This document shows, piece after piece, positions 28,595-35,896 of a stretch of DNA of 51,327 nucleotides. The notes under the pieces are model-generated. The model was not told where the DNA came from. It worked only from the letters and a program-made list of their open reading frames with translations, and searched no databases. The stretch is from Syntrophomonadaceae bacterium (GTDB lineage: Bacteria > Bacillota > Syntrophomonadia > Syntrophomonadales > DTU052). Location: NCBI GenBank assembly GCA_012728655.1, contig JAAYEQ010000048.1:1-51327 (forward strand). The letters run 5' to 3'. A program made the translations under genes and the position numbers. Within the stretch, counting starts at the first letter, position 1. Every line of letters starts with the position of its first letter.

Positions 28595-29353
28595 ATGGCC
28601 GACACTCCTCATAAACAGCCGATGCTGAGCCATGAGGAGACGCTCCGCCTGATCAGGGCCGCCCAGGCGGGTGACCAGGAAGCCAAGGAAAAACTGTACC
28701 AGGCAAACGTCGGTCTGATTTACCTGGTGATGGAGAGATTCAAGGGAACCAGGAATGAGTACGAAGACCTGTTTCAGGTGGGAAGCATAGGGTTGGTCAA
28801 AGCTATCGAGAGGTTCGACCCCGACTACGAGGTCAAGTTTTCCACCTATGCGGTACCGATGATCATCGGCGAAATCAGAAGGTTCCTGCGTGATGACGGC
28901 ATCCTCAAGGTGCAGCGAGGCTTGAAAGAGATATATTACCGGGTGAAGTGGGCGGCGGAGAAGATAAGCGCTGAAACAGGGCGTGAACCGACCATTGGCG
29001 AAATATCAGAAATGCTGGGGATAGACAAGGAGGAGATCGTGCTGGCCATGGAAGCCTGCCAGTCGCCCACCTCCATCTACGACCTTCTGTCCAATCAGGA
29101 ACGGGACAAGCTCAAACTGATTGATACCATCGGCGGTGATTTTGAAAAGGAAGACTTTTTGGAACAGGTGGCTTTACGAGAAGCCCTGGAAAAGCTGGAT
29201 TATCGTGAACGGGAAGTCATTTTGCGGCGCTTCTTCAAGGATGAAACCCAGGTGGCCATTGCCAACGACTTGGGCATCTCCCAGGTTCAGGTATCCCGCA
29301 TTGAGAGAGCGGCTCTCAAGCGATTGCGGGGATTTCTCTCCGAGATCGGGTAG
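28595..29353 (+). CDS. sigF: RNA polymerase sigma factor sigma-F
   Basis: This is the first compartment-specific sigma factor, active in the forespore after asymmetric division. The 252-residue sigma-70 protein has region 2 (EDLFQVGSIGLVKAIERFDP, KFSTYAVPMIIGEIRRFLRD), region 3 (around REPTIGEISEMLGI) and the region 4 helix-turn-helix (TQVAIANDLGISQVQVSRIERAALKRL). AGGGAGG sits nine bases before the ATG. sigF ends the operon; in many Clostridia spoVAC follows immediately, but here the next gene is on the other strand. Confidence 0.97.
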   Translation: MADTPHKQPMLSHEETLRLIRAAQAGDQEAKEKLYQANVGLIYLVMERFKGTRNEYEDLFQVGSIGLVKAIERFDPDYEVKFSTYAVPMIIGEIRRFLRDDGILKVQRGLKEIYYRVKWAAEKISAETGREPTIGEISEMLGIDKEEIVLAMEACQSPTSIYDLLSNQERDKLKLIDTIGGDFEKEDFLEQVALREALEKLDYREREVILRRFFKDETQVAIANDLGISQVQVSRIERAALKRLRGFLSEIG

Positions 29354-29370
29354 TCGTATGGCGACATCAG

Positions 29371-29403
29371 AAAAAAACCAACCCGGGTTTTACAGCCCGG
29401 GTT
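29371..29403. terminator. Bidirectional terminator between sigF and the DNRLRE gene
   Basis: An 8-bp stem (AACCCGGG, 29380-29387, with CCCGGGTT, 29396-29403) is flanked on the left by seven A. On the minus strand this reads as stem plus T7, a strong terminator for the convergent DNRLRE gene. On the plus strand the tail is only CGCTTTA, so it is weaker for sigF. Confidence 0.75.
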
Positions 29404-29563: not shown

Positions 29564-30412
29564 TCACTCATCACGGGTTGCGGCACTGACCAGATAGGCT
29601 CCCTGTTCTCCGGCTGAGGTGAAATTAAGGCTTGCTGCCCTTACCGCGGCCGAATAAGTAATCACCCGCTCCATCTGAGGGGGGATGGTGAACGCTGTAC
29701 TGGGATCAATAACCCTTACTCCCACCGGTTGCACAACCTCAACCGCGCCTACCAGGTTTCCATTTGTCTGGTTCCGAACCAGAAATGTGATCTGTTCTTG
29801 CCCGACCATGTTAATGAATGATGACTGCCTGGGAGCCCCAGTAAGGATTTCGAATGGATAGAATGTCGTGGTTCCATGGTACCAACGCACGGTTAATGAC
29901 GGCCACAGCCGACTGTCCGGAAAACGGGTGCTCCTAAAACCAAGGATATTGTTATTGGCGTTTTCAAGACCCCGCAGTGCGAAACCATTATTGGGTCTGG
30001 AACCGTTATACCAATTGATTACTATGCTAGTGACAATAGAAGATACTGTGGAGGGTGCAGGACCAGGAACCCCCTGCGACCCAATATCGGATACTGCCGG
30101 CTGGTTGTTGAAGGTAACAGTACTTTGATTCCAGGGCTCAAGTACATCTGTGACCCGTAACTCGGCAACACCGGGATTGTCATTGCGGTACATGGTTAGC
30201 TGCAGAGTTGCATCTTCAATGCTGCTGTTAGGCGGAATCCCATGATAAGGCGTGAATAAGTCAAACTGCAGTAAGCTGCGATAGATATCATTCTCGTTCG
30301 TAAAAGAACCAACAAACAGGACATCCCCCTGGGTCCGGTTAAGGAAATTCCTGTCCGGATAAGCCGATGCAATATATACGTCCTGAACTGGAGAAAAGGT
30401 TGTTTCAGGCAT
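29564..30412 (-). CDS. DNRLRE domain protein with C-terminal DUF6385-like domain
   Basis: A 282-residue protein without signal peptide or membrane segment. The N-terminal part (about 8-180) is a DNRLRE-type beta-sandwich: QDVYIASAYPDRNF, a YRSLLQFDL core, LQLTMYRNDNPG, WNQSTVTFNNQPA and NNGFALRG. The C-terminal part (about 185-282) looks like the DUF6385 beta-domain that often follows it; that assignment is from memory of the family pattern. DNRLRE domains are probably surface or carbohydrate-related modules. AAGGAGGTGAT, a near-perfect ribosome site, precedes the ATG. The protein is rich in Asn, Thr and Ser. It shares its N-terminal domain with the protein at 32335-33702. Function unknown; a spore-surface role is my inference from context. 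Confidence 0.8.
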   Translation of the reverse strand: MPETTFSPVQDVYIASAYPDRNFLNRTQGDVLFVGSFTNENDIYRSLLQFDLFTPYHGIPPNSSIEDATLQLTMYRNDNPGVAELRVTDVLEPWNQSTVTFNNQPAVSDIGSQGVPGPAPSTVSSIVTSIVINWYNGSRPNNGFALRGLENANNNILGFRSTRFPDSRLWPSLTVRWYHGTTTFYPFEILTGAPRQSSFINMVGQEQITFLVRNQTNGNLVGAVEVVQPVGVRVIDPSTAFTIPPQMERVITYSAAVRAASLNFTSAGEQGAYLVSAATRDE

Positions 30413-30623
30413 AATATCACCTCCTTCTTAGCTATCCTATTCAATAAAAATGGAAGGTGATACCATATATGGTCCTGTGGCGCTTCGGGATGGCTATGGA
30501 GGCGCTGGCCGGGATTGCTTAACGAAATTGGACCATCAGACGGGAGGCCCGTTTATTGTTGCCTTGTGTTTCTTGACCGGCAACAGGCGCAGGATTGTTT
30601 GATTTCCAGGGTCCGTCTGCAGT

Positions 30624-31352
30624 CTACCGGGTAACGGGGGTTATAAAGTCCCGGGTCTTCCAGCATCTGATACAGTAGCTCAAGTATTCGTAGTCTCCCA
30701 GGGGATAGGTATGGGGATCTGATGAATGATGGCGGATGGTCACGTAATTGTACTTGTCGACCGAAAAGATCTTCCGGCCCGCAGCCAGGCAGTCCTTTTG
30801 AAACTCGGTGTCCTCGCCGACAGTAATATCACGGAATCTTAGGTGCCGAAAGACTTCTTTTCTCACGATCATGGTGGCACCGATGACATATGAGACATAT
30901 GAGAACTGGGGATAGGCCTCATGGTAAGCCAGGATGGAAAGGTCCTGGAAGTATATGAACCGGGCTGATTTACCCACAATATCCGCGTAAGTGTAATCGA
31001 AGGCTGCCATCTCTCCGGTCAGGAAGTTGGGGGCATAATAATCGTCATCGTCAAACTTGGCCACATAATCAAAAACGGTGTGTTCCACCGCGAAATTGTA
31101 ACACTCTCCCAAAGAGACATTTTCGTCAAGCTGAAATACCTTAATTCCGCTATGTTTACCGACCCGCAATTGCCATTCTTTCCTGTTCATGCTGTTGTTG
31201 TTGAGGATAATGATAAGTTCTTTGGGCTGGTAGCGCTGGCGCAGGTAATTCCGAATTACATTCTCCATGCGGGAGGGGCGATTGGTGCAGGTCACAACGG
31301 ATACCCCCGGATAACCAATTGCGTTTTCCTGCTGACCACCGATTCTTGCCAA
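30624..31352 (-). CDS. Family 2 glycosyltransferase
   Basis: This 242-residue GT-A enzyme has VSVVTCTNRPSRMENVIRNYLRQ at the donor end, LIIILNNNSMN, the metal-binding YVAKFDDDDYYAPNF (DxD within DDDD) and GEDTEFQKDCLAAG in the acceptor half. No membrane segment is present. TTG at 31352 has GAGGTG six bases upstream on the minus strand. It is read divergently from the glycosyltransferase at 31524; the region between carries opposed sigma-K-like sites. A 211-base gap separates it from the DNRLRE gene downstream. Sugar and acceptor are unknown. Confidence 0.88.
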   Translation of the reverse strand: MARIGGQQENAIGYPGVSVVTCTNRPSRMENVIRNYLRQRYQPKELIIILNNNSMNRKEWQLRVGKHSGIKVFQLDENVSLGECYNFAVEHTVFDYVAKFDDDDYYAPNFLTGEMAAFDYTYADIVGKSARFIYFQDLSILAYHEAYPQFSYVSYVIGATMIVRKEVFRHLRFRDITVGEDTEFQKDCLAAGRKIFSVDKYNYVTIRHHSSDPHTYPLGDYEYLSYCIRCWKTRDFITPVTR

Positions 31353-31395
31353 GTATTACACCTCGAAAAAGATTCCCTTCGGGGCTGGTAATCTA

Positions 31396-31423
31396 AGTAT
31401 ATGGTGCCGCGGTAAGGACAGTT
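31396..31423 (-). promoter_or_regulatory. Possible sigma-K promoter for the leftward glycosyltransferase gene
   Basis: On the minus strand AACT (31423-31420), 16 bases, then CATATACTT (31403-31395). The mother-cell sigma-K consensus is mACm, 16 bases, CATAnnnTA; this site departs at the last -35 base and the last -10 base. The motif is short, so the call depends on its mirror-image partner at 31454-31481. Confidence 0.35.
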
Positions 31424-31453
31424 ACCGTCCGAGGACTGGAAGCCAATAGTTTG

Positions 31454-31481
31454 CACCACCATAGTAGGCGTTTCATAACAT
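31454..31481 (+). promoter_or_regulatory. Possible sigma-K promoter for the rightward glycosyltransferase operon
   Basis: CACC at 31454-31457, 16 bases, then CATAACAT at 31474-31481. This fits the sigma-K pattern (mACm, 16 bases, CATAnnnT) except for the last base of the -10, which is G. Initiation near 31489 would leave a leader of about 35 bases with AAGGAGAG before the TTG at 31524. Confidence 0.4.
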
Positions 31482-31523
31482 GGGAAAAGGAAGGCCTTTT
31501 GTTGAAAAAAAGGAGAGAAGTGT

Positions 31524-32300
31524 TTGCTCCAGGTATCAATTCTTATAACCGCTTTTATGAGACCGCACCTCCTGAAATGGAATCTGTTTTCTTTGGCCCG
31601 GCAGGAAATCGGGCTTGACTTCGAAACCATAGTATTGAACGACGGTATCCCGGACGAAACCGAGGCCCTCTGCCGCGAATACCAGGATATATTAAACCTT
31701 AAATATGTTTTCACGGGACAGAGAAATCTGAAGGGAGAACTGATTTACCGGGTGCCCGGTTTCGCGATCAATATCGGAGCCCGTATGGCCTCGGGGGACG
31801 TCCTGATCATCTCGTGTGCGGAAATGTTTCATATCAATAACACCATCGGACTGCTCGCCGCCCCTCTGCACTACGATCCGCGGCTTTTGGCAACCGCTAT
31901 CGGTATGGACGATGACGGCTCCTTTCTCGATTACCTCAATGAAAACGACGGCAGATTCGACTACCAGGCCTACCACTACCGGTATCCCCGCTTGAACACC
32001 AGTCTACCCTTCCTGATGGCGGTTCACCGACATGAATTCTTCGCCATCGGCGGCTACGACGAGGATTTTACCGGTTTCGCCTATGACGACAACGATTTTG
32101 TGGAGCGGCTGCAGGCCAACGGCTGCCGTCTCTGTTTAACCCAGGCCAAGACCATCCACCTCTACCATGTAAGGCATGATTTGGGGCGGGAACAGTCTCC
32201 GGAATACTTGTATAACCGGAGTCTTTATCTCGGCCGCAAGGGTCAGATTGTGCGCAACATCGGCAAAATATGGGGCAGGATCATACCTTACACTGCTTAG
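31524..32300 (+). CDS. Family 2 glycosyltransferase
   Basis: This 258-residue GT-A glycosyltransferase shows VSILITAFMRPHLLKWNL at the nucleotide end, IVLNDGIPDETEAL, and a C-terminal acceptor region GGYDEDFTGFAYDDNDFVERLQANGC, with a YDDNDF acidic cluster typical of GT2 enzymes that build surface polysaccharides. The region at the usual DxD position reads VLIISCAEMFHIN, so the classical DxD is missing and metal binding may depend on other residues. The TTG start has AAGGAGAGAA. It is the first gene of a three-gene operon with a DNRLRE-methyltransferase and an epimerase. Confidence 0.85.
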   Translation: MLQVSILITAFMRPHLLKWNLFSLARQEIGLDFETIVLNDGIPDETEALCREYQDILNLKYVFTGQRNLKGELIYRVPGFAINIGARMASGDVLIISCAEMFHINNTIGLLAAPLHYDPRLLATAIGMDDDGSFLDYLNENDGRFDYQAYHYRYPRLNTSLPFLMAVHRHEFFAIGGYDEDFTGFAYDDNDFVERLQANGCRLCLTQAKTIHLYHVRHDLGREQSPEYLYNRSLYLGRKGQIVRNIGKIWGRIIPYTA

Positions 32301-32334
32301 CCGGAATACTGATGAACAGGGAGGGACTATTACC

Positions 32335-33702
32335 ATGCCGATATATATTCCGGCCAGCGGGGCGACTCACATATCCGAGTATTACGGCGACCGTAACCCG
32401 ATGGCTGTGGATTGCAATCTCTATATTAGCCGGTTTCAAGGAGCAGGCGATAGATACCGCTCGCTGGTAAAGTTTGATCTCCGCCACCTGGCCGAGCTTC
32501 TGCCGGCCGGTGCCGCTATAGGCAGTGCTTACCTGCAGTTGACGGTTATACGCAACGACATCCCGTCGGGGAGCATTAATGCCGGTATCTGGCGCTGCCG
32601 TGAAGACTGGGATGAGGCCGGCGTGACCTGGAACCGCCAGCCGGCTACGGCGGAGAACCCTGATATTGTTTTTACCATTCCCGCAGGGTGGACGGGAATG
32701 ATGACTGTGGACGCAACTCCTCTGGTCAGGGACTGGGTGGACGGCCATTATTCGAATTACGGGTTTCTGCTGCGGGGCGACGAAGACAACAACCGGATAG
32801 TAGCTTTCAGTCCCGAGGTGCATCTGGTCATTGTGCCCTCAACCGCAGGAGCCAAAGGCCCACAGGTGCTCGGTGACACCGTGCTGATCGATTACCCGCT
32901 GCGGCCCGAGCCCCGGTATGGATACGGCAAACCCCCCCATCCCCGGATAAATCGCCTGCTCAACCACAACCGGCAAACTTACATTGGAAACCCCGAATAT
33001 ATCCGGGGGCTTGGGACTTTGTTCCGGGAAATACCGGAGGCCGCCGAGGATGACGCCGTTCCCCGGTGGCACAATCCGTGGATTTCCGGCTTTGACGCCG
33101 TAACTCTCTGCAGTTTTCTGGCTTTGAACAACCCCGGGCGGTATGTGGAAATAGGATCCGGGGAGTCAACCCGTTTTGCCCGCTGGACCGTCAACCGCCT
33201 GCGGCTGCGGACCACGGTAACCTCCATTGATCCCCACCCGCGGGGTGAGATCGACAGCCTGTGTGACCGCCTGCTCAGGAATCGAGTCGAAAACATCGAT
33301 CTGAGCGTCTTTTTTGAGCTCCAGCCCGGCGACATCGTCTTTGTTGATTCCTCCCACCGGGTCCTGATGAATTCTGATGTCACCGTGGTCTTTCTCGATA
33401 TCCTGCCCAACCTCCGGCCGGGAGTGCTGGTCCATTTCCATGACATATTCCTTCCCGATGATTACCCCCCGGACTGGATCGGCCGTTATTACTCGGAACA
33501 GTATCTTCTGGCCGTCTATCTGCTGGCCGGGGGAAAGACCGTCGAGGTACTGCAGCCCAATTACTTCATCAGCCGTGATCCCGAGCTGTCGAGATTCCTG
33601 GAACCGCTTTGGGAGGATTTGCCCCATATTTCCAGGCACGGGGCATCTTTCTGGCTTATGACCGGTTTCGGATCGGCAAGGACAGCCGGGGAAGCGGTAT
33701 AA
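32335..33702 (+). CDS. DNRLRE domain fused to a SAM-dependent methyltransferase
   Basis: A 455-residue two-domain protein. Residues 1 to about 165 form a DNRLRE beta-sandwich closely like that of the protein at 29564-30412 (ATHISEYYGDRNP, YRSLVKFDL, LQLTVIRNDIPSG, GVTWNRQPA, NYGFLLRGDEDNN). After a proline-rich linker (about 170-240) comes a class I methyltransferase of the Methyltransf_24 type: motif I YVEIGSGEST, VTSIDPHPRG, DIVFVDSSH and VLVHFHDIFLPDDYP. No signal peptide is seen. The fusion suggests that the DNRLRE part brings the enzyme to a surface or glycan substrate, which is inference. It begins 34 bases after the glycosyltransferase and has AGGGAGGG upstream of the ATG. Confidence 0.85.
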   Translation: MPIYIPASGATHISEYYGDRNPMAVDCNLYISRFQGAGDRYRSLVKFDLRHLAELLPAGAAIGSAYLQLTVIRNDIPSGSINAGIWRCREDWDEAGVTWNRQPATAENPDIVFTIPAGWTGMMTVDATPLVRDWVDGHYSNYGFLLRGDEDNNRIVAFSPEVHLVIVPSTAGAKGPQVLGDTVLIDYPLRPEPRYGYGKPPHPRINRLLNHNRQTYIGNPEYIRGLGTLFREIPEAAEDDAVPRWHNPWISGFDAVTLCSFLALNNPGRYVEIGSGESTRFARWTVNRLRLRTTVTSIDPHPRGEIDSLCDRLLRNRVENIDLSVFFELQPGDIVFVDSSHRVLMNSDVTVVFLDILPNLRPGVLVHFHDIFLPDDYPPDWIGRYYSEQYLLAVYLLAGGKTVEVLQPNYFISRDPELSRFLEPLWEDLPHISRHGASFWLMTGFGSARTAGEAV

Positions 33703-33745
33703 GCCAACCGTCGGAAGAGATGGAATTGAAGTTGGGGGTGTTGTT

Positions 33746-34666
33746 TTGAAGATCCTGGTTACCGGGGGCAAGGGTGTTATCGGTTCTGCGCTGGTCAGGT
33801 GTTTGGAGGGCCGGGGACACGAGGTATGGGTGTGCGACCTGAAGCACAGCCATGAGGAAAGGTATATCCGCTGTGATGTCGGCAAATACCGGCAGCTGCT
33901 TCAGGTTTTCGAAAAGCAGGAGTACGACCTGGTTTACCACCTGGCGGCCGAATTCGGCAGGTGGAACGGTGAGGATTATTTTGAAGACCTGTGGGTGACC
34001 AACTGCATCGGTACCAAAAACATGCTGCGGCTGCAGGAGAAATACGGATTTAAGATGGTTTTTGCCAGCAGTTCCGAGGTATATGGCGATTACCGGGGGC
34101 TTATGAGAGAAGAGGTGATGGATACCGAGGAGATCCGGCAATTGAACGATTACGCCCTGTCCAAGTGGGTCAACGAACTGCAGATCATGAATGCCGAACG
34201 GATGTCCGGCAGCCGGACCGTCAGGGTCAGACTGTTTAACACTTACGGGCCGGGCGAATACTACACCCCTTACCGGAGTGCGATCAGCATCTTCGCTTAT
34301 AAAGCTCTGCATAACCTGCCTTACACCGTCTACCTCGGCCACCGTCGGACCTCCCTGTATATCGACGATTGTGTTGAGTGTCTGGCGAATATTGTTGACA
34401 ACTTTCAAGCCGGTGAGGTCTACAACCTGGCGGGACAGGAGCTCCACGACATGAAAACCGTGTCCGACCTGGTTCTCGAGTACCTGGGCAAAGACGACCG
34501 CCTGGTAAATTACGTTCCCGAGGAAAAATTCACGGTTAGGGTCAAGATTCCCGATAACAGCAAAGCGGTAAGATTCCTCGGTCTTAACCCCAGAGTCGGT
34601 TTGCGTGAGGGCATAGCCCGGACCGTTGACTGGATGAGGGAAGTGTATCAGCCGGCCCGGGTTTGA
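33746..34666 (+). CDS. NAD-dependent nucleotide-sugar epimerase/dehydratase
   Basis: This 306-residue extended short-chain dehydrogenase has the NAD-binding GGKGVIGSALV, DVGKY (where most family members have D-x-x-D), VYHLAAEFGRW, the catalytic Ser in FASSSEVYG and YxxxK in YALSKWVNE. The RLFNTYGPGEYYTPYRSAIS block is typical of enzymes acting on UDP-, dTDP- or GDP-sugars. The substrate cannot be told. It is the third gene of the glycosyltransferase operon, 43 bases after the methyltransferase fusion, and may supply the sugar donor. Confidence 0.88.
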   Translation: MKILVTGGKGVIGSALVRCLEGRGHEVWVCDLKHSHEERYIRCDVGKYRQLLQVFEKQEYDLVYHLAAEFGRWNGEDYFEDLWVTNCIGTKNMLRLQEKYGFKMVFASSSEVYGDYRGLMREEVMDTEEIRQLNDYALSKWVNELQIMNAERMSGSRTVRVRLFNTYGPGEYYTPYRSAISIFAYKALHNLPYTVYLGHRRTSLYIDDCVECLANIVDNFQAGEVYNLAGQELHDMKTVSDLVLEYLGKDDRLVNYVPEEKFTVRVKIPDNSKAVRFLGLNPRVGLREGIARTVDWMREVYQPARV

Positions 34667-34717: not shown

Positions 34718-34746
34718 GGATAAGTTTGCGAAAAACGTGCATAATA
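34718..34746 (+). promoter_or_regulatory. Sigma-G promoter of spoVAD
   Basis: GGATA at 34718-34722, 17 bases, then CATAATA at 34740-34746. Both halves match the forespore sigma-G consensus (GHATR-like -35, CATWHTA -10) apart from G at the second -35 position, with a permitted spacing. spoVA genes are sigma-G-dependent in B. subtilis, so location and sequence agree. The resulting leader of about 140 bases contains the tandem hairpin repeat. Confidence 0.7.
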
Positions 34747-34894: not shown

Positions 34895-35896
34895 ATGGCC
34901 GGCAAGAAGATTGGCATGCAGAGTATAGCCTTCAGCAGTCCCCCGCAGATCGCTTCCTGGGCTTCAATTGTCGGTCCCATGGAAGGCGAGGGCCCGTTCG
35001 GCAGTAAGTTCGACTGGGTGATGGAAGATTATTTTTTCGGTACGGGGTCCTATGAAGAAGCCGAGGGCAAGATGCTCAAAGAGGCCGTGCGGTTGGCCGC
35101 CCGCAAAGAGGGGCTGCAGGTAAAAGATATTGAAGTGGTATTGGCCGGAGATTTCCTGAACCAATCCCCGGCATCCAATTATGCGGGGCGCGAACTGTCG
35201 CTGCCGTTTCTTGGCATCTATGGAGCCTGCACCACGTTGGTCGAGGGCATGATACTGGCAGGGATGCTCATCGATGGTTCATTTTACGACCGCGTTGCGG
35301 TAGGTGCGGTAAGCCATTATCATACCGCCGAACGTCACTTCCGCCTGCCCGTCGAACTCGACGGGGGCAAGCTGGCCTCGGCGCAGTGGCCGGTAACCGG
35401 TGCCGGCGCGGTAATAGTGCAGCGCTTGGGAGACCGGCCTCGAATCACCGTGGCTACCATTGGCAGGGTGGTGGAAGGGGAGCTTTCGGGAGTCAGCGAC
35501 CTGGGAGCGGCCATAGCCTCGGCCGCTGCCGACACCGTAATAACTCATTTTAAAGACCTGGACCGAGGACCGGATTACTATGACCTGATTGTTACCGGGG
35601 ATCTGGGGAAGCTGGGCTCCGCTTTAATGGAGGAATTATGCCTGGCGGCCGGTTATTCCCTGGGGGAGAAGTACACCGACTGCGGGGTTGAAATCTATGC
35701 CCGCCAGCAGCAGAACATAATGGCGGGCGGCAGAGGATGTGGGAGCCTGGCGGCCATGACATGCGGGCCTTATCTGGGCAGCTTAACCGCAGGAAGGATA
35801 AGACGCCTTCTCCTGGTCGGCACCGGCGCCATGATGGTGGAGCAGGGTGCTTCCATCCCCGGAATTGCTCATGCGGTTGCCGTCGAAGCCGAATGA
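34895..35896 (+). CDS. spoVAD: Stage V sporulation protein AD
   Basis: SpoVAD is a thiolase-fold protein of the SpoVA channel that binds dipicolinic acid for uptake into the forespore. The 333-residue protein shows the family segments ASWASIVGPMEGEGPF, LAGDFLNQSPASNYAGRELSLPFLGIYGACTT, SHYHTAERHFR and the C-terminal LLLVGTGAMMV. The ribosome site AAAGGCTG is modest. A sigma-G promoter precedes it. The partners SpoVAC and SpoVAEb, usually adjacent, are not in the window. Confidence 0.96.
   Translation: MAGKKIGMQSIAFSSPPQIASWASIVGPMEGEGPFGSKFDWVMEDYFFGTGSYEEAEGKMLKEAVRLAARKEGLQVKDIEVVLAGDFLNQSPASNYAGRELSLPFLGIYGACTTLVEGMILAGMLIDGSFYDRVAVGAVSHYHTAERHFRLPVELDGGKLASAQWPVTGAGAVIVQRLGDRPRITVATIGRVVEGELSGVSDLGAAIASAAADTVITHFKDLDRGPDYYDLIVTGDLGKLGSALMEELCLAAGYSLGEKYTDCGVEIYARQQQNIMAGGRGCGSLAAMTCGPYLGSLTAGRIRRLLLVGTGAMMVEQGASIPGIAHAVAVEAE

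Follow-up and report, generated by a model that had tools for sequence, protein, structure and literature searches.

A five-gene cassette between sigF and spoVAD in a Syntrophomonadaceae bacterium, a probable spore-surface glycosylation module

What do five genes do that stand between the sporulation genes sigF and spoVAD in a Syntrophomonadaceae bacterium? The window analyzed here is the whole 51,327-nt stretch formed by bases 1–51327 of a 118,050-base contig (G000:C77) from a genome of 2.31 Mb that is 96% complete. Its nearest named kin are metagenome-assembled genomes (MAGs) labelled Syntrophothermus sp. (DTU052, UBA1445), in an order that also includes Syntrophomonas. From 5′ to 3′, dacF, two genes that we take from their sequence to be spoIIAA and spoIIAB, and sigF are followed by the cassette, spoVAD, spoVAE1 and three genes presumably of the 2-hydroxyglutaryl-CoA-dehydratase type. 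The cassette codes for a DNRLRE protein (DNRLRE1), two family 2 glycosyltransferases (GTa and GTb), a fusion of a DNRLRE domain with a methyltransferase (DNRLRE-MT) and a nucleotide-sugar epimerase. A sequence-only reading had described these five genes, with sporulation genes on both flanks, as an undescribed module that modifies the spore or cell surface. Gene content and flanks proved to be as described: all five open reading frames (ORFs) are open within 29564–34666, and the domain scores agree. We estimate a probability of about 75% that the cassette serves to glycosylate the spore surface and is switched on late in sporulation, in the mother cell.

All four genomes of the genus (g1; G000, the window's genome, and G001–G003), which are not independent of one another, carry the block DNRLRE1–GTa–GTb–DNRLRE-MT–epimerase in the sigF–spoVAD interval. 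The dN/dS of the five genes was 0.07–0.30. As all three other genomes of the genus hold the same five genes in the same interval under purifying selection, we do not attribute the position of the cassette to chance. The G001 copy (L064:2013-11396) is interrupted by approximately 6 kb encoding a SpoIIE-type phosphatase sensor, a GGDEF-HD protein and two PnrA-like lipoproteins; this insertion also adds a second DNRLRE1 copy and a gene of the metallo-beta-lactamase fold.

Base composition in the region could point to selfish or foreign DNA at a tolerant site, with a function not tied to its place. The GC content falls to 0.485–0.51 across the first half of the cassette region, the GC content at third codon positions (GC3) is 0.50 in DNRLRE1 versus 0.60–0.71 in 29 other genes compared, and GTb is absent from G004, a sister genus of the same family, and from the f3 genomes. 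Retention in four of four genomes at a dN/dS well below 1 argues against such an origin, however, as does the fact that no tRNA or convincing flanking direct repeat was seen and no integrase was present among the identified ORFs. Moreover, in genus g5, the sigF–spoVAC gap is filled by a different glycan island. We therefore judge foreign DNA to be very unlikely. The g5 island is longer than 10 kb (L124:4156-14973 in G019:C3, also in G007:C78 and G013:C43) and contains two GTb-family genes, a CgeB-like enzyme, a heparinase-like protein and UDP-FucNAc/ManNAcA-type sugar genes.

Recurrence outside the genus was followed through GTb. Within the class (63 genomes), 25 matches were obtained. G061 and G015 (E 2.6e-4 and 6.9e-4) were not accepted as GTb, which left 23 genomes with a strong match. 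Across the phylum, 12 of 398 genomes have GTb. A named scan examined 44 GTb loci, with L178–L181 (weak or short matches) left out. It located GTb in Syntrophomonadia, Desulfosporosinus and other Peptococcaceae, Desulforudis, Pelosinus, Halanaerobiales and unnamed Bacillota; the exceptions were one MAG labelled Desulfovibrio, one labelled Methanocellales and some weak matches. By these matches, GTb is almost entirely confined to spore-forming Bacillota.

GTb loci were sorted into two types. Type I, defined by GTa and the epimerase beside GTb, has GTa and GTb in divergent orientation, then DNRLRE and the epimerase, and at times a methyltransferase or a UDP-ManNAcA-type dehydrogenase (the latter in g14 and g20). 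This core was detected in six genera (g1, g5, g14, g16, g20 and g21), adjoining spoVA in some and at unrelated sites in others, and its GTb genes form one clade (13 rows, support 100/99). A DNRLRE domain was encoded in 11 of 11 named-scan loci of this type, the only count of type I contents that is independent of the definition. With the block kept in every genus genome and DNRLRE in every core locus, the cassette genes are not scattered in relatives. The DNRLRE-MT fusion occurs in 4/4 g1 genomes. Genus g20, represented by S. palmitatica and one MAG, encodes DNRLRE and the methyltransferase in distinct genes that neighbour each other in one cluster, so the fusion in the window joins partners that are adjacent elsewhere. 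The cultured strain S. palmitatica JCM 14374 has its cassette (L143) ~10 kb from spoVAD. Beyond g1, the methyltransferase was found only in G027 (61 genomes), with G062 added by the neighbourhood survey. The WecC-like dehydrogenase of the g14 and g20 cassettes was also looked for in the window's genome, where a 35% match elsewhere was the only candidate and was rejected.

The domain assignments of the five genes were upheld by matches above curated cut-offs. GTa carries a Glycos_transf_2 domain (49.4 bits, cut-off 23.3) with an intact acidic motif, FDDDDYY, which we take to bind metal. GTb matched Glycos_transf_2 (38.9 bits, same cut-off) and Glyco_transf_7C (36.6 bits), and is distantly similar to chondroitin synthase and beta-1,4-galactosyltransferase. 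The methyltransferase part of DNRLRE-MT matched Methyltransf_24 (42.5 bits; class I, O-methyltransferase-like fold); sequence comparison of this part with PDB gave nothing useful. As called, the fusion ORF begins at 32176, inside GTb, and relatives (446 aa in G001, 447 aa in G003) place the start at approximately 32335. The epimerase has an NAD epimerase domain (147.6 bits), and its nearest solved relative is 8w3u/9ar1, titled dTDP-glucose 4,6-dehydratase related protein (E 1.6e-108). Rows of glycosyltransferase and sugar-nucleotide genes are also typical of flagellin glycosylation islands, and the cassette might be read as one of these. However, flagellin genes lie on other contigs in G002, G003, G021, G027, G030, G048 and G062, and no flagellin was found in the carriers G000, G001 and G033, which is weak evidence given their incomplete assemblies. 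A flagellin island is, in our view, highly improbable.

Both DNRLRE domains of the cassette belong to the DNRLRE/CBM96 family (Pfam cut-off 26), scoring 51.8 bits in DNRLRE1 (residues ~3–175) and 49.4 bits in DNRLRE-MT, and 104.1 and 87.8 bits, respectively, against NF033679 (NCBIfam, cut-off 34). They share 35% identity across 151 columns. The C-terminal 107-residue domain of DNRLRE1 had no Pfam match, belongs to no known family and is limited to the genus among the ORFs examined. Profile matches to solved entries were 8wab (6.2e-10) and 7vbo (2.6e-9). A structure model of DNRLRE-MT, with a pLDDT of only 55.7, had 8wab as its top Foldseek match, and its matches comprised carbohydrate-binding modules of the CBM96 kind and class I O-methyltransferases. 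The DNRLRE1 model (mean pLDDT 43, built from five close sequences) was not used. The CBM96 member TM6-N4 is reported to bind alginate (PMC9971899), and the title of 8wab names chondroitin sulfate as ligand; both are uronic-acid polymers.

None of the 47 distinct DNRLRE ORFs (57 sequences) had a hydrophobic N-terminus by a simple hydropathy test, which is not SignalP, and in most of the 57 the DNRLRE domain starts within 20 residues of the N-terminus. Exported surface proteins require a signal; proteins of the spore coat or exosporium, which are assembled from the mother-cell cytosol, do not. The lack of an export signal therefore fits assembly from the mother cell. DNRLRE1, itself without a signal peptide, may be a structural component of the spore surface or the protein there that accepts the sugars. 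The same result speaks against a vegetative cell-surface polysaccharide or S-layer glycan cassette placed by chance between sporulation operons, an alternative suggested by the first description of DNRLRE, which is reported to have been in cell-surface proteins (PMC2447325). Elsewhere in the genome (G000:C46:41306-41800, L070), another DNRLRE protein is encoded that consists of the single domain (188 aa) and likewise lacks a signal peptide; it has orthologues in G001–G003 with conserved surroundings.

The sigma-K consensus is mACm and CATAnnnTA with a spacer of 16–17. The cassette is transcribed in two directions (DNRLRE1 and GTa in one; GTb, DNRLRE-MT and the epimerase in the other), and the promoter regions of both arms meet between GTa and GTb. 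This intergenic region contains, in 4/4 genus genomes, AC-N17-CATAnACT before GTa and AC-N17-CATAAnnT before GTb, elements that fit the consensus; in G001, their spacer has diverged. Across 13 cassette loci, a sigma-K-like element was present before GTb in seven (three genera; at −62 to −73) and before GTa in four. The strict motif preceded 7/61 cassette genes, compared with 0.59 expected and at most two in 100 dinucleotide shuffles. It also preceded 40/412 genes of type II loci (3.0 expected, at most eight in shuffles), versus 1/177 other genes of cassette loci and 0/198 genes of control loci. Patterns resembling sigma-A, sigma-E and sigma-G sites were not enriched before cassette genes. The sigma-A-like TTGA..TA...T preceded 4/61 cassette genes versus 17/181 others, which again disfavours the vegetative or S-layer alternative. 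The strict GTa promoter was tried and dropped as a regulon finder in five genomes: its sole match was the GTa site, once each in G001, G002 and G003. The GTa promoter of G000 differs from the strict pattern in the last base, hence the lack of a genome-wide match there.

Position gave a further link to the spore. In 11 of the 23 genomes with a strong GTb match, no more than 15 kb separates GTb from spoVAD; these represent four of 11 genera (g1, g3, g5 and g20) and differ in arrangement. By our rough estimate (30 kb of 2–4 Mb per copy), such proximity would arise by chance in ~1–2% per genus.

The type II loci (30, including L177 with a truncated GTb), which hold the GTb cousins, have other contents. 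They combine FnlA/FnlB/WecB-type nucleotide-sugar genes with large methyltransferase-glycosyltransferase proteins, many of which end in a GTb domain. L176 was placed in neither type, nor were L151 and L175, two pieces from contig ends of the same genome. A collagen-like ORF was present in 17/30 type II loci, 0.4–5.4 kb from GTb, and a collagen-like or TTGL-domain gene in 21/30, with three others beside sigF. In the one-contig Acididesulfobacillus genome the distance is 0.45 kb. Cousins of GTb with collagen-like, BclA-type exosporium genes alongside are those of Desulfosporosinus and relatives. The L163 collagen protein contains a BclA_C domain (68.8 bits, cut-off 38). L157 encodes, 1.5 kb from GTb, a single 434-aa protein that unites DNRLRE, collagen and BclA_C (the last at 29.1 bits, E 1e-6, below the cut-off). 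Proteins with DNRLRE and collagen are also encoded in G016 (780 and 1322 aa) and in G004 (419 aa). Species with type II loci have several collagen genes per genome, so these neighbourhoods are suggestive and not unique. Such neighbours of the GTb cousins are a third argument against the vegetative or S-layer alternative, which we rate as unlikely, and together with the sigma-K-like promoters and the missing export signals they support surface modification, with the spore favoured.

Two side observations concern the same loci. Single proteins of ~930–1120 aa that join methyltransferase, GT2 and GTb are encoded in many of L150–L173 (Desulfosporosinus, Peptococcaceae and Pelosinus), adjoining UDP-sugar genes and often collagen-like genes. 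The TTGL domain, 114 aa with the consensus start M..LTTGL..N, occurs in L160:12400-12744, L163:11384-12493 and 52 further ORFs of Desulfosporosinus and relatives. It either makes up a small protein by itself or stands at the N-terminus of a collagen/BclA_C protein; the L160 copy had no Pfam match. The two forms look like the pair of filament subunit and tip protein reported for endospore appendages (PMC11952670), and the TTGL proteins may be a new family of such appendages. Kinship of the DNRLRE1 C-terminal domain with TTGL was rejected (hhalign probability 0.1%).

Several results weigh against the spore-surface interpretation. GTb was not seen near spoVAD (it was elsewhere or on another contig) in 12 of the 23 GTb genomes, and type I cassettes in g5, g14, g16 and g21 are surrounded by genes mainly of housekeeping function; in one of these genera an SLH-domain gene is present ~4 kb away, as would suit an S-layer or vegetative cassette. 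In 6/13 cassette loci there is no sigma-K-like element before GTb. The strict motif was also detected on the opposite strand in 5/61 cassette and 31/412 type II upstream regions; divergent genes may explain this, yet it weakens the count. As spoVAD is present in 56/61 relatives, nearly all of which sporulate, non-sporulators are too few for an association of GTb with spoVAD to be shown. Finally, the genus has no convincing collagen/BclA gene: there was none in G001–G003, and the single match in G000 was antisense inside another ORF on a 3.9-kb contig and was not counted. The acceptor is for this reason a guess.

In a spore-surface cassette, the epimerase would supply an unusual or modified nucleotide sugar. 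Two cytosolic enzymes, GTa and GTb, would then assemble a glycan by attaching sugars to a protein in the outermost layer of the spore, with DNRLRE1 as a possible acceptor or structural component. The methyltransferase would O-methylate and thereby cap the glycan, while its DNRLRE domain may tether it to its substrate or to the spore layer. The tethering ligand could be an acidic or amino-sugar glycan, since CBM96 members bind uronic-acid polymers and the g14 and g20 cassettes carry the UDP-ManNAcA-type dehydrogenase.

The coordinates of the locus are given in Table 1. The terminator-like hairpin would end the DNRLRE1 transcript towards sigF, although the consensus scan that yielded it was overall not above chance (eight found versus 7.1 expected). 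The element before spoVAD is conserved and resembles a forespore promoter, so transcription of spoVAD need not pass through the cassette and would start from a promoter of its own.

Table 1. Features of the sigF–spoVAD interval, in window coordinates.
Feature	Position	Strand	Basis
sigF, left border	28595..29353	+	domain matches
Terminator-like hairpin	29380..29403	-	consensus scan
DNRLRE1, 282 aa	29564..30412	-	domain matches
GTa, family 2 glycosyltransferase	30624..31352	-	domain match, motif
Sigma-K-like promoter of GTa, AC-N17-CATATACT	31396..31422	-	spacing equal in 4/4 genus genomes
Sigma-K-like promoter of GTb, AC-N17-CATAACAT, 70 nt before start codon	31455..31481	+	
GTb, family 2 glycosyltransferase, marker gene of cassette	31524..32300	+	domain matches
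DNRLRE-MT, DNRLRE/CBM96 + class I methyltransferase fusion	32335..33702	+	domain matches, relatives
NAD-dependent nucleotide-sugar epimerase/dehydratase	33746..34666	+	domain match
Forespore-promoter-like element, GGATAA-N16-CATAATA	34718..34746	+	invariant core, 3 genomes
spoVAD, right border	34895..35896	+	domain matches

The cassette had also been said to interrupt the order sigF–spoVAC–spoVAD. Relatives without it do keep these genes contiguous (G006, G014, G018 and G026; in a further one, G008, ~3 kb of small ORFs intervenes), but spoVAC is absent from the sigF–spoVAD locus throughout the window's genus, missing and not displaced: the genome has just two genes of the SpoVAC/SpoVAEb family, both on contig C27. 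They belong to a spoVA2mob-like operon (L069:7680-11148) comprising DUF1657, DUF421+DUF1657 ('2Duf'), SpoVAC, SpoVAD, SpoVAEb and a YhcN-type lipoprotein. Similar operons are present at L074 (G002) and L068 (G004), Pfam domains having been assigned on L069 only. As this operon holds the only SpoVAC/SpoVAEb of the genome, the native SpoVA channel appears to have given way in this lineage to a spoVA2mob-like type. In Bacillus, spoVA2mob-type SpoVA has been linked to high heat resistance in published work (PMC5133452, PMC10126465).

DNRLRE1 stood out further by a synonymous divergence 4–5 times below that of its neighbours. Its dS was 0.10–0.11 to G002/G003 versus 0.34–0.61 for nine other genes compared, and 0.42 to G001 versus 1.3–1.7 for sigF, GTa, GTb, the fusion and the epimerase. 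The effect is confined to the coding region, with a DNA identity of 96% for DNRLRE1, 71–87% for its two flanking intergenic regions and 83–91% for neighbouring genes. Codon bias from high expression was rejected as the source (effective codon number 52.8, together with the low GC3). Either DNRLRE1 was exchanged between species of the genus, or it is constrained at synonymous sites.

Among known systems, the sps, cge and yfn gene sets of B. subtilis provide mother-cell glycosyltransferases and nucleotide-sugar enzymes for the spore surface. The cassette would be a set of the same kind, but it consists of other families at another place; only a CgeB-like PF13524 enzyme is shared, in the g5 and g3 islands. 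In C. difficile, the O-GlcNAc transferase SgtA, encoded just upstream of the gene for the collagen-like exosporium glycoprotein BclA3, is reported to glycosylate BclA3 peptides and start the O-glycan (PMC7157674), and bclA1-3 are reported to be sigma-K-dependent (PMC3789822). The sgtA–bclA3 pair thus sets a glycosyltransferase that acts on the spore surface beside a gene for a protein of that surface, as the cassette would, whereas the window cassette has no collagen protein and has DNRLRE proteins, an epimerase and a fused methyltransferase instead. The two are likened by proposed function; homology is not claimed. BclA-type exosporium glycoproteins (collagen plus BclA_C) resemble what adjoins the GTb cousins and what is fused to DNRLRE there, but in the window's DNRLRE proteins Pfam revealed neither collagen repeats nor BclA_C. 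TM6-N4, 7vbo and 8wab belong to the same Pfam family as the cassette's DNRLRE domains, which may share the beta-sandwich fold of the solved members, going by the low-confidence model. Those known modules are parts of polysaccharide-degrading enzymes, whereas DNRLRE here has no export signal, is encoded by spore-linked genes and is fused to a methyltransferase or collagen.

The module appears to be undescribed. Papers mentioning DNRLRE included none on spores, judging by title or abstract, and none was found for the combinations spore, collagen-like, glycosyltransferase and Desulfosporosinus, or Syntrophomonas, spore coat and glycosyltransferase. More tentatively, and at odds somewhat worse than even, DNRLRE might be a general spore-surface module of anaerobic spore formers. 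It would head collagen/BclA filaments, form an outer layer alone where collagen is lacking, and, through the fusion, bring a methyltransferase to the spore to act on the surface sugar there, with the sigF–spoVA junction as a recurrent site for exchangeable spore-glycan islands.

If the spore-surface interpretation is correct, the cassette would be a first candidate in syntrophic anaerobes for a system that makes a glycan of the spore surface, and would give a function to the DNRLRE domain, so far annotated only as cell-surface or alginate-binding. GTb would be a marker enzyme with which to find exosporium glycan clusters across Bacillota, and DNRLRE-MT a testable case in which a carbohydrate-binding domain anchors an enzyme on the surface of the spore.

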